Assembly: GCA_020718905.1 (NCBI GenBank) | Contig: DYRD01000002.1 | Span: 40,047 to 82,354, forward strand | Direction of reading: 5' to 3' | Source: Syntrophus aciditrophicus | GTDB lineage: Bacteria > Desulfobacterota > Syntrophia > Syntrophales > UBA8958 | DNA length: 42,308 bases | Shown here: piece by piece, positions 14,901 through 41,556 of the stretch | Numbering within the stretch: position 1 is the first letter of the stretch | Layout: each line of letters begins with the position of its first letter | Translations under genes and position numbers: made by a program | The notes under the pieces: model-generated | Told to the model about the DNA's origin: nothing | What the model saw: the letters and a program-made list of their open reading frames with translations, nothing else | Databases searched by the model: none

Positions 14901-14927
14901 ACTAAACCTCCTCGAACTTCAATATAT

Positions 14928-15026
14928 GACGGCTTCGTAAAACATCCGGATGCGGCGTTGCGCGGCATCCTTCGTCTCATTCCTCATGATTGTCGCGCCT
15001 TGCTTGCGGATCTTTTACGAAGCCGT
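14928..15026. repeat. dispersed repeat copy A (99 bp)
   Basis: GACGGCTTCGTAAAACATCCGGATGCGGCGT...CTCATTCCTCATGATTGTCGCGCCTTGCTTGCGGATCTTTTACGAAGCCGT; termini are inverted copies of each other. Confidence 0.85.
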
Positions 15027-15097
15027 TGCTTATGCCCAAGGGTTCCTCTTTTTACCTGTTCTTCAACCGACAGATGTATAAAGGAAAACAGCTTCCT

Positions 15098-21100: not shown

Positions 21101-22050
21101 TGGCGGGGGAGAGGTTTCAGGCCGCCTACCTTCCGGAGCTCCAAATAATAGCGAATCCCCGTCTCACTTTCGAAGGAACCACCGCGCTGCTGATCCTGCG
21201 CGGGGCTATCGATGTCCCGGAAGGGCGGTACACCGAGTCCAAAGAACCCGGTATGATCCAGACAAGCCGGGATGTCCGGGTCCTGGACAGGGGAGAAAAA
21301 AGACCCAGTCCCTCCCCCGTTGCGATGGATATTGACCTCTCCATTAGTTTGGGGGAAAAGGTTTTCATGAAAACCCGAGATATTGAAGGGAGGTTTACCG
21401 GCAAGATGACCGCTGTCGGCAGGAGGCTGGATAATCTCCGCACCCGCGGCGAGATCCACATCACCCAGGGAACTCTCTATGCGGCAGATGCCAAGCTTCC
21501 CATTGAAAGGGGCCACATCTTCTTCAAGGACAAGCCCTTTCCCCTTGCTTCCCTTGATATCCTGGCGGTAAAGACGGTCGGTGATGTTCGGGCGGGATTG
21601 CTTGTGACCGGCACCATTCGCACCCCCGTCGTAACCCTCTATTCTGTGCCCTCCATGTCGGACCAGGACGTACTCGCCCATATCGTCTTCGGTACGAGCT
21701 ATACCGGCGACAAAATCCAGGTCACGACGCTGCTGAAATCGGCAGGAATGTTTCTTGCCCAGGGAAAATCGGGGGGGCTCGAAGACAGCCTGAGAAAAAG
21801 CGCCGGTCTGGAGATCGGGGGGCTGACTTCCCCTAATCGCTCGAAGCAGGGAAGGACCGATATGACCACTTCTCTATCCCTGGTGGGCCAGTATTTGTCG
21901 CCCCAGCTCTATGTCGGTCTGGGGTGGGCCCTCTTCAGCGATGATATCCTGTATGTCATGAAATATTCCCTCACGAAACAATGGGAAGTGGAAACGAAGG
22001 CGGGAACGCAGAGCAGCATCGATCTCTTTTTCAAGATCGACTTCGATTGA
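18124..22050 (+). CDS. tamB: TamB/DUF490 translocation and assembly module
   Basis: 1308 aa with one N-terminal TM; repetitive beta-rich body; C-terminal VPSMSDQDVLAHIVFGTS...YLSPQLYVGLGWALFSDDILYVMKYSLTKQWEVETKAG. Confidence 0.92.
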   Translation: MNKKAIVPLTLLASILVLAGIVVWLFYTETGAQYLVNRLIRFVPAKIETAGISGTLASELAVRDLRIISITEGHRLTIGKASVQWRPWELPLGKVVLAKLILREVSLQDGRPDDPIGLTWPRLPEALSWFQGRIDQLEIRGLVYRSGSRETLIQKADCRVDYSYGFARIHDLFMESMAGKMTGAIQTHLMSPFLVADIKIEPKGSSWPMTVLQARLRDPDRSMYVNGPFTAKIFDGLKERFTLNGGVSVDRHALTFAGLSLKENGRKGAVKGEGKVDFSRAVTFIQGVVKAEELDLTREAGVECRLTGNLDIAGNLSSYQGRFRLRPYFTAGDSGEASGVFSGDRDRVSIEELRMNLDLGKGTISGRMHVNWEKGLAATATLHARKIDPSRKVPDLRGEINADLEGSFRRPPGASVEADVKGRLLGSQLMGKQLTGTVKARWKDESLKLDDLSLQGDGFYVRARGAARDRILYEARVTKLSRLLPKAEGQFQGQGWFRLHNRLLSGKLVAAGKGIAVDRTTVESLTADLSLAEGGNKDLQARVTAKNLSLWETRWRDAELKVGGTRSRHRAELTFMGPENGIRIQAAGSYQQAVWTGIIEDVLWDSKRFGSLAIVKPADIVVTRHAFSLSPLLLAGRGGEQLELAARMDGQKKQESLSAGWQDFELGRVTFFAADTEMAGKTTGKIQVNWPGRARFRMSGAAMVKGEVSHGTWKLPVREGQTRIRWDERGLDVRQSLDLGAKGKVTAVLSSAAPPAGAMPGEGTFQIRLADMDLQLIKPLLPASLETEGRLSGQADGQLLPQQRFTMKGQSTVSGGAWRIAYPKGKVQLSQERLALAWNWQDDALRGTLEGKLVNHGEIRSTFSLPIKAQIPLKMDKAGPLAIAAKGDLREKGLLSALFPGTVRETHGQLVMDLAMTGSWQSPAYQGTVRLDRAGAYVPATGISLEDVSAVVRFFRDRIEIEQASARSGDGSIKGKATLWYGDRKIQRIKGSLAGERFQAAYLPELQIIANPRLTFEGTTALLILRGAIDVPEGRYTESKEPGMIQTSRDVRVLDRGEKRPSPSPVAMDIDLSISLGEKVFMKTRDIEGRFTGKMTAVGRRLDNLRTRGEIHITQGTLYAADAKLPIERGHIFFKDKPFPLASLDILAVKTVGDVRAGLLVTGTIRTPVVTLYSVPSMSDQDVLAHIVFGTSYTGDKIQVTTLLKSAGMFLAQGKSGGLEDSLRKSAGLEIGGLTSPNRSKQGRTDMTTSLSLVGQYLSPQLYVGLGWALFSDDILYVMKYSLTKQWEVETKAGTQSSIDLFFKIDFD

Positions 22051-22195
22051 CGGCTTCGTAAAAGGTCCGGATGCGGCGTGGCGCTGCATCCGGACCCGTA
22101 GCAAGCACGGGGCAGGCTTGCTGCGAAGTATGTCAAGTACGCCTCATTCCTCAGTATTTGCGCGCCTTGCCTGCGGATCTTTTTACGAAGCCGTC
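22049..22195. repeat. dispersed repeat copy B (147 bp)
   Basis: GACGGCTTCGTAAAAGGTCCGGATGCGGCGT...CCTCATTCCTCAGTATTTGCGCGCCTTGCCTGCGGATCTTTTTACGAAGCCGTC; same ends as copy A plus about 48 bp internal sequence. Confidence 0.88.
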
Positions 22196-22197
22196 AA

Positions 22198-23679
22198 TTA
22201 TGGCCAACTTTTCCACTTTTTTACGGGCTCCTCTTGATTAGTTCTTTTTTTCGTTTTGATCGTTACCTCAACCGTAGGCGGTTTACCGCCCTCAAACCTG
22301 ACATTCGGCGGATAGCGGAGGACGGCTGCGAAGCTGGTCCGTTCGGCAATTTTCGAGAGATCGATGGGTTCGGTCTGAATCTTAATCTTTCCCTGGGTAG
22401 CGGCGACGCCGGGAACGATGACCCGCACTGCCGACGGGGAGGCGGATATTTCCTGGACGGCGATTCCCCGGGGAGGCTTCCCGGTAGTGGGGACGGCAAC
22501 GGGTATGGAAACGGCAACGAAACGGGAGGCCGTAATTGTAACCTCCGGGGGGATAACTGCTACTACGGTAAGACTTGATGGGGCCTTCACCATCTCCCGG
22601 GTGAGAATAATTGCCTGTTTCCCCTCACGAATATCACCTAATTTCACAGATATTTTAAGTGTTTCCGGATCAAGGAGCTGAAATGCCTGAGTGGGTCCGG
22701 AGAGGATCACTTTTGCTTCCGTAAGCTTGGGATCTTCAAGGATGTACTGGCGGGAGACGTTGAGATACTCAATGGGAATGAGGAAGTCGCGGCGGACAGA
22801 TTCTTTCTGGTAGCCGAAAACAACCCACAGGATGCATGCCAGCGCCAGGGCGATTACCTTTTCCCGGGTGTTCTTCTTGATTTCCTGCGATAAGCGCGAT
22901 GTCTTCCCTTGCTCGGGCGACATTTCCCGATAGAAGGTCTCCAATTCGTTTTGCAGGGCCGCTGCGCCGCTCAAGGCCTGAATCCTCTCGTTCCGGGCGA
23001 TAGAAATGGTGCCCCGTTCTTCCGACACGACGATGCAGAGGGCGTCGGAACGCTCGGCAAGGCCCAGGGCGGCGGTATGGCGCAGGCCCGTCGCGCCGAT
23101 CCGCTCCATATTCGTTGACAGGGGCAGGTGACAGCCGAAACGGGTGATGCGGTTCCCATAAATGATGACGGCGCCGTCGTGCCCCGGGGAGTGGGGATCG
23201 AAGATGCTTTCGAGGAGGGCCTGACTGAGCAGACCGTACAGTTTTGTGCCGCCGCTGATGTGCCTGTCCAGGGGGTCGTCTCCCCCCAGCACGATCAGGG
23301 CGCCCCTATGATTTCTCGCCAGGTTTGCCACCGTTGCCGCAAGCACTTCCGTTTCCTCATGTTGAGGGCCGGCGGATCGCGCCTGTTTATTGAGGCGACC
23401 GATAATGGCGAGGCGCTCGAAGAACCTGCGCAGGTCTTCCTGAAAAATGACAACGAGCACAAAGAGCAAGATAGCGAAGAAACCCTGAAGCACAACCGTT
23501 GTCAAGTAGAGCTGAAAGAAGCGTGCCGTGACGTAGACGGCGCTGATGCCGACCAGGACGAAACGAGAGGCCCGCTCTTTAAACCAGACGAGGAGGGCAT
23601 AGATCATCAGGGAAACAATGATGATATCAAGAACATCTTGGATTCTGAGATTATTGATTATGGAGATTATCGTCTGCAT
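22198..23679 (-). CDS. diadenylate cyclase (CdaA-like, DisA_N) fused to a YbbR/CdaR-like region
   Basis: Three N-terminal TM segments; GGTKLYGLLSQALLESIFDPHSPGHDGAVII; ERIGATGLRHTAALGLAERSDALCIVVSEERGTIS; then TM and YbbR-like repeats to 493 aa. Confidence 0.9.
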   Translation of the reverse strand: MQTIISIINNLRIQDVLDIIIVSLMIYALLVWFKERASRFVLVGISAVYVTARFFQLYLTTVVLQGFFAILLFVLVVIFQEDLRRFFERLAIIGRLNKQARSAGPQHEETEVLAATVANLARNHRGALIVLGGDDPLDRHISGGTKLYGLLSQALLESIFDPHSPGHDGAVIIYGNRITRFGCHLPLSTNMERIGATGLRHTAALGLAERSDALCIVVSEERGTISIARNERIQALSGAAALQNELETFYREMSPEQGKTSRLSQEIKKNTREKVIALALACILWVVFGYQKESVRRDFLIPIEYLNVSRQYILEDPKLTEAKVILSGPTQAFQLLDPETLKISVKLGDIREGKQAIILTREMVKAPSSLTVVAVIPPEVTITASRFVAVSIPVAVPTTGKPPRGIAVQEISASPSAVRVIVPGVAATQGKIKIQTEPIDLSKIAERTSFAAVLRYPPNVRFEGGKPPTVEVTIKTKKRTNQEEPVKKWKSWP

Positions 23680-37948: not shown

Positions 37949-40021
37949 ATGACGGAACACCCGTTGGATAAGATAATTCATCCTGCTCCCCGTTCCCCCG
38001 GGGTGTATCTCATGAAGGACATCACCGGGAAAGTCATGTACGTCGGCAAGGCCAGGGACCTCCGTTCCCGCCTCCGGAACTATGTGGGAGGGGGAGATAC
38101 GCGTCCCATGATCCCCTTTCTTGTCTCCCGCATCCGGGACATTGAATGGATACTTACGGATACGGAAAAAGAGGCCCTCATCCTCGAGAATACCCTCATC
38201 AAGGAACACCGGCCCCGCTATAATGTTGATTTCCGCGACGACAAGGCCTACTTTAACATTCGCGTGCTTCCCACGGAGACCTTCCCCCGGTTTCAGCTCG
38301 TCCGGCGACAGAAAAAGGACGGGGCGAGATACTTCGGTCCTTACCCGTCCAGCGCCTCAGCCAAGGAAACCCTGCGCTTCCTCCAGACCGTCTTTCCCCT
38401 CCGTACCTGCCGGGACGTGGAACTCCGGAGCCGCAGACGGCCGTGCCTGGAATATCAGATCGGTCGTTGCCTGGGGCCCTGCGTCCGGCTTGTTACGGAA
38501 GAAGACTATCAAGATGCCGTCCGGGACGCCTTGACCTTCCTCGAAGGCAGGGAAACGGATCTGTTGCAAAACCTGGAGAACCGGATGAAGGATGCGGCGA
38601 AGGCGCTGCACTTCGAGGAAGCCGCCGCTTTGCGGGACAGGATAGCAGCTGTCCGGAGGACTCTGGAAATTCAGCGGACCGCTTCCCTGACGGCAAGAGA
38701 TCAGGATGTATTCGGCCTGTATCGGGAGGGCGCCCTGACCCAGGTTTGTCTCCTGAAGGTGAGAGCAGGCAAAATGGTGGGAAAACAGACTTTTCCCCTG
38801 ATCCGGGTCGGCCTCCCGACCGGGGAGATCCTTGCCGCGGTGCTTACCCGGTACTATGACGCCGGCCATGAAATCCCGGGAAAGATCATGCTTCCTGCCG
38901 CGACCGAGGACCGGTCTGTCCTTGAAGAGTGGCTCGGGGAGACGCGGGGGCGATCCGTCAAGATCCTGGTCCCGAAAAGAGGGCAGGGGAGGGCCCTCAT
39001 CGGGATGGCCAACCGTAACAGCGAAAGCACCCTGAAGGTCATGCAGCAGACCACCGGTCCCGATGAGGCCATGAAGCGTCTCGTGACGGCGCTGGGGCTC
39101 CGGAAGACGCCGGAGCGGATGGAGTGTTTAGACATCTCGAATATTGGCGGCGAATATGCCGTCGGGGCCATGGTCGTCTTTGCGCACGGCGCTCCGGATA
39201 GGGATCATTATCGCCGCTTCCGGATCCAGACGATCTCCGGCGCCGATGACTATGCCATGATGTATGAGGTTCTCACGCGGCGTTATCGCCGGAGGGCGGA
39301 CCTGCCGGACCTGTTGATGGTGGATGGAGGAAAAGGACAGCTTTCCGTGGCCCTTTCCGTATTGAAGGACCTGGATATCAGCGGGGTAGAGGTAATCGCC
39401 CTGGCCAAAGGGGGATACTATGACGGAGAGGAGACGAGGGGTGCCGATCAAATAGAGAGATATCAAGTCAATGAAGGATCAAGCCATGATGAGCAACCTT
39501 TGCATAACAGTTCCTTTTCTAATTATGGGCTTGACCGGGAAGCCGGCCACGACTTTTCAATTCCCGCTCCCGCCCCGCTTTCTGCCGGGGTGACGTGCGG
39601 GAATGACGATGGAGAGGCTGGAAAGGTATATTTAAGAGGTCTTGATGATCGTGAGGGGAGACTTCGTGTCAAAGGCAGACCAAGCGGCGACCGGGTCTTC
39701 CTGCCGGCACGAAAGGACGCCGTAGATATCTCCCGCTGGCCGGCGGCCTTATTCCTTCTCCAGCGGCTCCGGGATGAGGCCCACCGTTTTGCCGTAAGTT
39801 ATTATCGGAAGGTAAAAGAAAAAGAGGATTTCCGCTCCCTCCTGGATCATATTCGAGGTATCGGTCCGGAGAGAAGGAAGGCCCTTCTCAAAGGGTTGGG
39901 AGACCTGGGAAAGATCAGGGAGGCGACTGTTATTGACTTGCAGAAGATCGGGGGAATTGGTAAGGATCTGGCCCAGGAAATTTTTGCTTTTTTTAGAAAG
40001 GAAAACGGTCTGCCGTCGTGA
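37949..40021 (+). CDS. uvrC: excinuclease ABC subunit C with an approximately 80-aa internal insertion
   Basis: PRSPGVYLMKDITGKVMYVGKARDLRSRLRNYV, UVR motif, ECLDISNIGGEYAVGAMVVF, DRVFLPARKDAV, C-terminal HhH. Insert about 39408-39690. Confidence 0.96.
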   Translation: MTEHPLDKIIHPAPRSPGVYLMKDITGKVMYVGKARDLRSRLRNYVGGGDTRPMIPFLVSRIRDIEWILTDTEKEALILENTLIKEHRPRYNVDFRDDKAYFNIRVLPTETFPRFQLVRRQKKDGARYFGPYPSSASAKETLRFLQTVFPLRTCRDVELRSRRRPCLEYQIGRCLGPCVRLVTEEDYQDAVRDALTFLEGRETDLLQNLENRMKDAAKALHFEEAAALRDRIAAVRRTLEIQRTASLTARDQDVFGLYREGALTQVCLLKVRAGKMVGKQTFPLIRVGLPTGEILAAVLTRYYDAGHEIPGKIMLPAATEDRSVLEEWLGETRGRSVKILVPKRGQGRALIGMANRNSESTLKVMQQTTGPDEAMKRLVTALGLRKTPERMECLDISNIGGEYAVGAMVVFAHGAPDRDHYRRFRIQTISGADDYAMMYEVLTRRYRRRADLPDLLMVDGGKGQLSVALSVLKDLDISGVEVIALAKGGYYDGEETRGADQIERYQVNEGSSHDEQPLHNSSFSNYGLDREAGHDFSIPAPAPLSAGVTCGNDDGEAGKVYLRGLDDREGRLRVKGRPSGDRVFLPARKDAVDISRWPAALFLLQRLRDEAHRFAVSYYRKVKEKEDFRSLLDHIRGIGPERRKALLKGLGDLGKIREATVIDLQKIGGIGKDLAQEIFAFFRKENGLPS
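39560..39604. repeat. imperfect palindrome inside the uvrC insertion
   Basis: ATTCCCGC-tcccg-CCCCG-ctttctgc-CGGGG-tgacgt-GCGGGAAT-GACGA: outer 8-bp and inner 5-bp arms. Confidence 0.65.
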
Positions 40022-41186: not shown

Positions 41187-41556
41187 ATGAAAGTTTTTCG
41201 TAAGAGAATAAGGACAGAAGGGTTTCACCCTGATCGAGCTCATGATCGTTATCGCGATCATCGGTATCCTGGCAGCCATCGCCATCCCGCAGTTCACGGC
41301 GTATAGGACCAGGGGCTATGAGTCGCAGGCGAAGGCCGATGCAAAGAACGCCTACACTGCGGCACAGGCATTCTTCTCCGATTCCCCTGCAGCAACAGTT
41401 ACCTCTGCTCTGTTGGGATCCTATGGATTCAAGTCGACACAGAATGTAACGACAACTGTTGCTACTGGAACGCAGGCCGGTTTGTCGATTACAACGACAA
41501 GCACGAATGGCGGTCGGGGGTTTTCTGTAGATAGTACGGGTACAATAACTCCGTAA
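41187..41556 (+). pseudogene. pilA: type IV major pilin, leader separated by a 1-nt frameshift
   Basis: ATG at 41187 reads [12 protein letters not shown] then loses frame. Removing one G of GGG at 41220-41222 gives [56 protein letters not shown].... Confidence 0.85.

Follow-up and report, generated by a model that had tools for sequence, protein, structure and literature searches.

What is the extra stretch inside the UvrC protein encoded by this DNA, and how did it get there without interrupting the gene? The question concerns the window, i.e., the whole stretch of 42,308 nucleotides from Syntrophus aciditrophicus that was analyzed. The original prediction saw in it an in-frame insertion of about 280 nt, 39408-39690, carrying a palindromic repeat, and the reading frame is indeed open throughout this region. 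The answer that we favor, with high confidence, is that the uvrC loop holds a palindromic MITE bounded by terminal inverted repeats (TIRs), which inserted at GATGA, extended the protein, and then diverged, most likely in a near-neutral way. Only a part of the proposed extent belongs to this mobile insert: the element covers 39493-39643, the net gain is 156 nt, and the remainder is attributed to an older loop. The features of the locus are the following.

37949..40021, + strand: uvrC, excinuclease ABC subunit C, 690 aa, insertion-bearing (open frame, Pfam, PDB relatives).
39408..39487, + strand: pre-existing hypervariable loop, left part, not element (homologous to the empty alleles of L010 and L012).
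39488..39492, no strand: left target-site duplication (TSD) GATGA (sequence; element start from the covariance-model alignment; 5-bp TSDs of the family).
39493..39643, + strand: palindromic MITE, full-length diverged copy, 151 nt (family consensus of 133 bp plus 18 nt; cmsearch, nhmmer).
39493..39507, + strand: left TIR GCAACCTTTGCATAA (family form GAGACCTTTGAAAAA; alignment).
39562..39610, no strand: nested palindromes ATTCCCGC..GCGGGAATGACGA around CCCCG..CGGGGTGACG, CGTC-tagged REP-like (sequence; family core with paired CGTC-type units).
39629..39643, + strand: right TIR TATTTAAGAGGTCTT (family form TTTTTCAAAGGTCTC; alignment).
39644..39648, no strand: right TSD GATGA (sequence).
39649..39690, + strand: pre-existing hypervariable loop, right part (ungapped match of the joined flanks to congener L012).

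Pfam recognizes the GIY-YIG, UVR, UvrC_RNaseH, UvrC_RNaseH_dom, and HhH domains in the protein, and the closest PDB entries are 3c65, 2nrt, and 8b0q. The loop at VIALAK..GDRVFLP far exceeds that of the solved structures 3c65 and 2nrt, in which a gap of 13-19 residues separates the two stretches of the profile match. Relatives were originally thought to have a short linker, and this view does not hold: the VIALAK..FLP segment measures 105 aa in the window versus 47, 62, 76, and 81 aa in four close congeners, while distant relatives range widely, with a DGGKGQ-to-RDEAHRFA spacing of 69 to 160 residues across the order, the window being the longest seen. To judge from these alignments, the loop is hypervariable in the order; since the congeners differ so much in its length, part of 39408-39690 predates the element, and roughly half of it is older loop. 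In other genera, the UvrC linkers L013, L014, L015, L018, L043, and L059 are long, rich in Gly, Pro, and Glu, and do not contain the uvrC-loop MITE; their source is possibly other elements or loop drift. The same assembly has a second UvrC-like gene (G000:C208:14540-16357), 43% identical to the window UvrC, which is either a paralogue or part of a contaminant contig, and a short type IV pilin-like ORF lies downstream of uvrC (window 41242-41556).

Is the whole segment just the outcome of ordinary length drift, by slippage and small duplications, with an accidental likeness to a repeat? Loop lengths vary greatly across the order and most lineages do not have the element. In addition, when the genome was searched with the insert by BLASTN, the check that the original prediction proposed, no second copy was found (best other match, E 0.42). 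The reason is the divergence of the window copy; only congeners and profiles make the family visible. However, an nhmmer profile and a covariance model, both trained exclusively on non-UvrC copies, recognize the element: cmsearch places it at 39493-39643, covering model positions 1-133 (E 3.2e-9 in a search space of 139 kb), and nhmmer at 39496-39642 (E 2e-10), as the single match in the window, with zero matches of the profile to the reversed window. The model-defined ends are bordered by exact GATGA on both sides. Once the element and one GATGA are removed, the joined flanks align ungapped to the L012 linker (52/77, against a shuffle maximum of 40), and each arm, taken alone, matches L012 best at adjoining positions; neither the profile nor the covariance model matches the congener linkers L010, L011, and L012. 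This duplication and empty site bear out the prediction of a mobile insertion. To these points one can add a recognizable and apparently orthologous copy in the congener G007. Length drift is refuted as the sole explanation, a role for which it is highly improbable, yet it accounts for the loop outside 39488-39648.

As for the copy in G007, its linker, L009, matches the MITE model at the same UvrC site and shares the right flank TCTTGATGATC..AGGGGAGAC with the window, the left part of the element having been lost in G007. The window and L009 linkers agree at 71% over 154 nt (E 3.3e-16). The simplest reading is that both copies would derive from one insertion in a common ancestor; we infer this, since the branching order of the five closest species is not settled by the UvrC tree built without the linker. 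The same copy is relevant to another doubt, namely that a repeat was wrongly joined into uvrC during assembly or binning, given that the window assembly is fragmented (319 contigs) with 3% contamination. Such an artefact has a practically negligible probability: an independent genome carries a copy at the same site, the reading frame is unbroken at either side of the insert, the TSD is exact, and a mis-join from another copy is ruled out because the uvrC copy is diverged and single-copy.

The family to which the MITE belongs was first recognized via L009, which matches further loci in the genus, and the type copy (G001:C190:51696-51828), used as query, has matches across the genus. The consensus is a 133-bp palindromic element with TIRs GAGACCTTTGAAAAA..TTTTTCAAAGGTCTC, in pattern form GAGACCTTTG(A/C)AAAA; in the uvrC copy the TIRs are degenerate, and the left one is short of part of the consensus. 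In the compared genomes, which are assemblies and probably mostly metagenome bins, the covariance model gave 10 matches in the window genome (G000), thus few, 17 in G001, at least 149 in G002, 18 in G003, 19 in G005, 8 in G006, and 15 in G007, some copies being scored on both strands. In G002 the exact 15-mer TIR occurs 167 times, versus 0 for the reversed control, and over the order the model matches in 41 of 60 genomes. The very large expansion in G002 (2.8 Mb) includes copies that are often adjacent or nested, and many of them have a TAG inside the frame that other species use.

Do these copies bear the scars of transposition? Exact 5-bp duplications are found at the model ends of 15 of the 50 full copies, versus 0.16 expected from pairing the ends of different copies, and among the lengths compared (3-9) the peak clearly lies at 5 bp. 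Duplications of this size also flank copies in other genera, such as GAATC for L348, GTATA for L349, and ATGTC for L351. With its TIRs, its TSDs, its shortness (133 bp), its many copies, and no transposase gene, the family reads as a non-autonomous, TIR-bounded MITE of the genus and the order. In the genome stretches that were examined, no recognized transposase was found inside the MITE TIRs. Inverted TIR pairs 0.6-2.7 kb apart in these stretches were considered as candidates for an autonomous partner and enclosed housekeeping or spurious ORFs; the best-looking pair, G002:C3:239963-241151, contains an endonuclease III-like gene.

The dispersed repeat family that the original prediction envisaged is therefore found, through congener copies, profile and covariance-model matches, TIRs, and 5-bp duplications; the outcome that would have spoken against it, an insert conserved family-wide with no repeat copies elsewhere, is not what is seen. 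The predicted palindrome, ATTCCCGC..CCCCG..CGGGG..GCGGGAATGACGA, is present in the window, where it makes up a part of the element and not the whole. The motif GTCATTCCCGC is barely enriched in the window genome (7 versus 3 in the reversed control). In Rfam the window has no match, and the element loci gave just one sub-threshold chance match. The support comes from family membership, the TSD, and the empty site, not from palindromicity.

The window also contains a different inverted-repeat element, with copies at 14922-15030 and 22046-22198 that are alike up to 91% in parts and have the ends ATTGACGGCTTCGTAAAA / TTTTACGAAGCCGTCAAT; the second copy provides the TGA stop for an ORF ending at 22050. 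In other genera, some elements of the CGTC type (L353, L359, L360) are bordered by related ends, GACGGCCTCGTAAAA and TTTTACGAAGCCATC.

Another question is whether uvrC is a singular case. In six genomes, other than G002, 62 distinct MITE copies were placed; in the GC-rich G002, the six-frame ORFs across the elements were mostly judged spurious and left out of the genic count. A copy was counted as genic when conserved domains lie on both sides of it or when it splits a domain. Besides UvrC, at least six conserved genes are concerned, as follows.

Spermidine-synthase-like membrane protein, G001: in-frame MITE copy.
CheR-TPR, G007: in-frame MITE copy.
SpoIID, G003: in-frame MITE copy within the domain, splitting the match into two Pfam stretches.
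HrpA helicase, G003: in-frame MITE copy.
Carbamoyltransferase, G001: in-frame, right part of the MITE.
Two-Thy1-domain protein, G001, G003, and G007: left half of the MITE in the common frame, after which an internal indel shifts the frame.

The seven insertion sites, including UvrC, use one orientation and one frame, RPLKN..HSGLDPES..LDSGLRRNDD..EFFKGL; the inserted UvrC peptide includes the stretch EQPLHNSSFSNYGLDR..GLDD. In the type copy two frames are free of stops, and the one that is used is hydrophilic (GRAVY -0.99, versus +0.09 for the other). As for the G001 membrane protein, its homologues in G003, G007, G005, and G002 span the MITE site and lack the element, and a partial homologue in G006 is also without it. 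The original prediction of an in-frame entry like that of Rickettsia palindromic elements (RPEs) thus extends to other conserved proteins of the genus. Is the element made for genes? With its duplication it amounts to 133+5=138 bp, or 46 codons, a frame-neutral length that is common in this genus but not universal, so that an adaptation to genes is still a hypothesis. That the whole family is frame-adapted is a reading weakened by the many copies of 130-132 bp and by the copies in other genera, which often measure 131 bp.

How can UvrC live with such an insert? In an AlphaFold model built on 42 relatives, the domains are well predicted, and residues 490-578 have a pLDDT below 50 and no secondary structure; two strands of the RNase H domain, 481-486 and 582-584, frame this stretch, and the conserved Asp, Glu, and His residues (D395, D459, D609, E610, H612) are outside it. 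The model agrees with the early idea of an insert tolerated in a loop, and we propose that it is tolerated because the loop is unstructured. The insert-bearing UvrC is presumably made and functional. Perhaps, then, the element has been kept for the benefit of the host, as an mRNA hairpin tuning uvrC expression or as a peptide changing UvrC? The frame has stayed open and in phase ever since the split from G007, and several excinuclease and other repair genes have REPs (Di Nocera et al. 2013, PMC3733652). On the other hand, the sequence is poorly conserved between the window and G007, where the left part is gone, the same MITE is carried by unrelated genes, and shuffled versions of the window DNA strand fold just as well, the bare fold of the insert region not being unusual (z 0.61). 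We consider a host benefit very unlikely.

The preferred course of events, that of a mobile element with a near-neutral fate, would be as follows. The MITE would have been moved by a transposase supplied in trans and working on its GAGACCTTTGAAAAA ends, and the landing site would have been GATGA in an already long, disordered RNase H loop, in the ancestor shared with G007. Element and duplication together make a multiple of three (138 bp in the common form; 156 nt, or 52 codons, gained in uvrC), and the inserted frame is stop-free and hydrophilic; because of this length and this open frame, UvrC would have been lengthened, not broken. The segment would later have diverged, also through an indel whose length is divisible by three, and its most likely status is that of a selfish, near-neutral sequence, with no selection for UvrC function.

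How does this MITE relate to the palindromic repeats already described? RPEs are palindromic repeats found in frame in protein genes, as Ogata et al. (2000, 2002) are reported in PMC2229807 and PMC10969869, and in a review table their TSD entry is a question mark (PMC2229807). Like them, the present elements measure ∼100-150 bp, are palindromic with inverted ends, and occur in frame within conserved protein genes that are unrelated to one another, seven in this family, and also between genes; unlike them, the uvrC MITE has clear 5-bp TSDs and a Syntrophales-related host, not Rickettsia. Because of this host it is not classed among the RPEs: it works like one, by analogy of behavior, and is best described as a MITE with a CGTC-REP-like dimer.

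The CGTC-tagged REP superfamily, which includes RPE-4 and RPE-6, occurs inside genes, those for excinuclease and other repair proteins among them, and seems to have no dedicated transposase (Di Nocera et al. 2013, PMC3733652). The MITE core is alike, with two inverted units (T/C)GTC-ATTCCGG..CCGGAAT-CCA. By eye, against the description in PMC3733652, the type copy has the CGTC/TGTC tag, the 8-9 bp stem from AT, the 4-5 nt loop, and the CCA tail (TGTC-ATTCCGGG-CTTGA-CCCGGAAT-CCA plus an inverted partner), and the window copy has them in degenerate form. The difference is that here the dimer is nested in a longer element, which has a TSD and inverted ends (GAGACCTTTGAAAAA) of its own. ERIC and the 107-bp NEMIS of Neisseria (PMC2229807) share the TIRs, the TSDs, the lack of a transposase gene, and open frames fused to host genes, but have other sequences and hosts, and termini 5'-TA-3' (PMC2229807), against 5-bp duplications without a fixed sequence here. 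Among open-licence papers, none was found on miniature inverted-repeat elements of Syntrophus. The novelty lies in the host group, together with the TIR and TSD signature for such repeats.

Rickettsia and Wolbachia are the best-known carriers of coding palindromes, which have often been tied to reduced intracellular genomes. The same phenomenon is now seen in free-living syntrophic bacteria with genomes of 2.6-4 Mb, this time accompanied by TSDs and by congeners whose sites are empty, and the family supplies a natural collection of in-frame insertions into domain loops and linkers. Through it, the movement of CGTC-type repeats (left open in PMC3733652) and the duplications of RPEs (PMC2229807) become testable. 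A more tentative idea, toward which we lean less than away, is that CGTC-type REP dimers travel in Syntrophales inside a TIR- and TSD-bearing element, of which the subfamily of this genus (138 bp, one frame, seven genes) would be fit for landing in genes. If REP dimers do move inside such an element, repeats of unexplained mobility would gain a mechanism of transposition.
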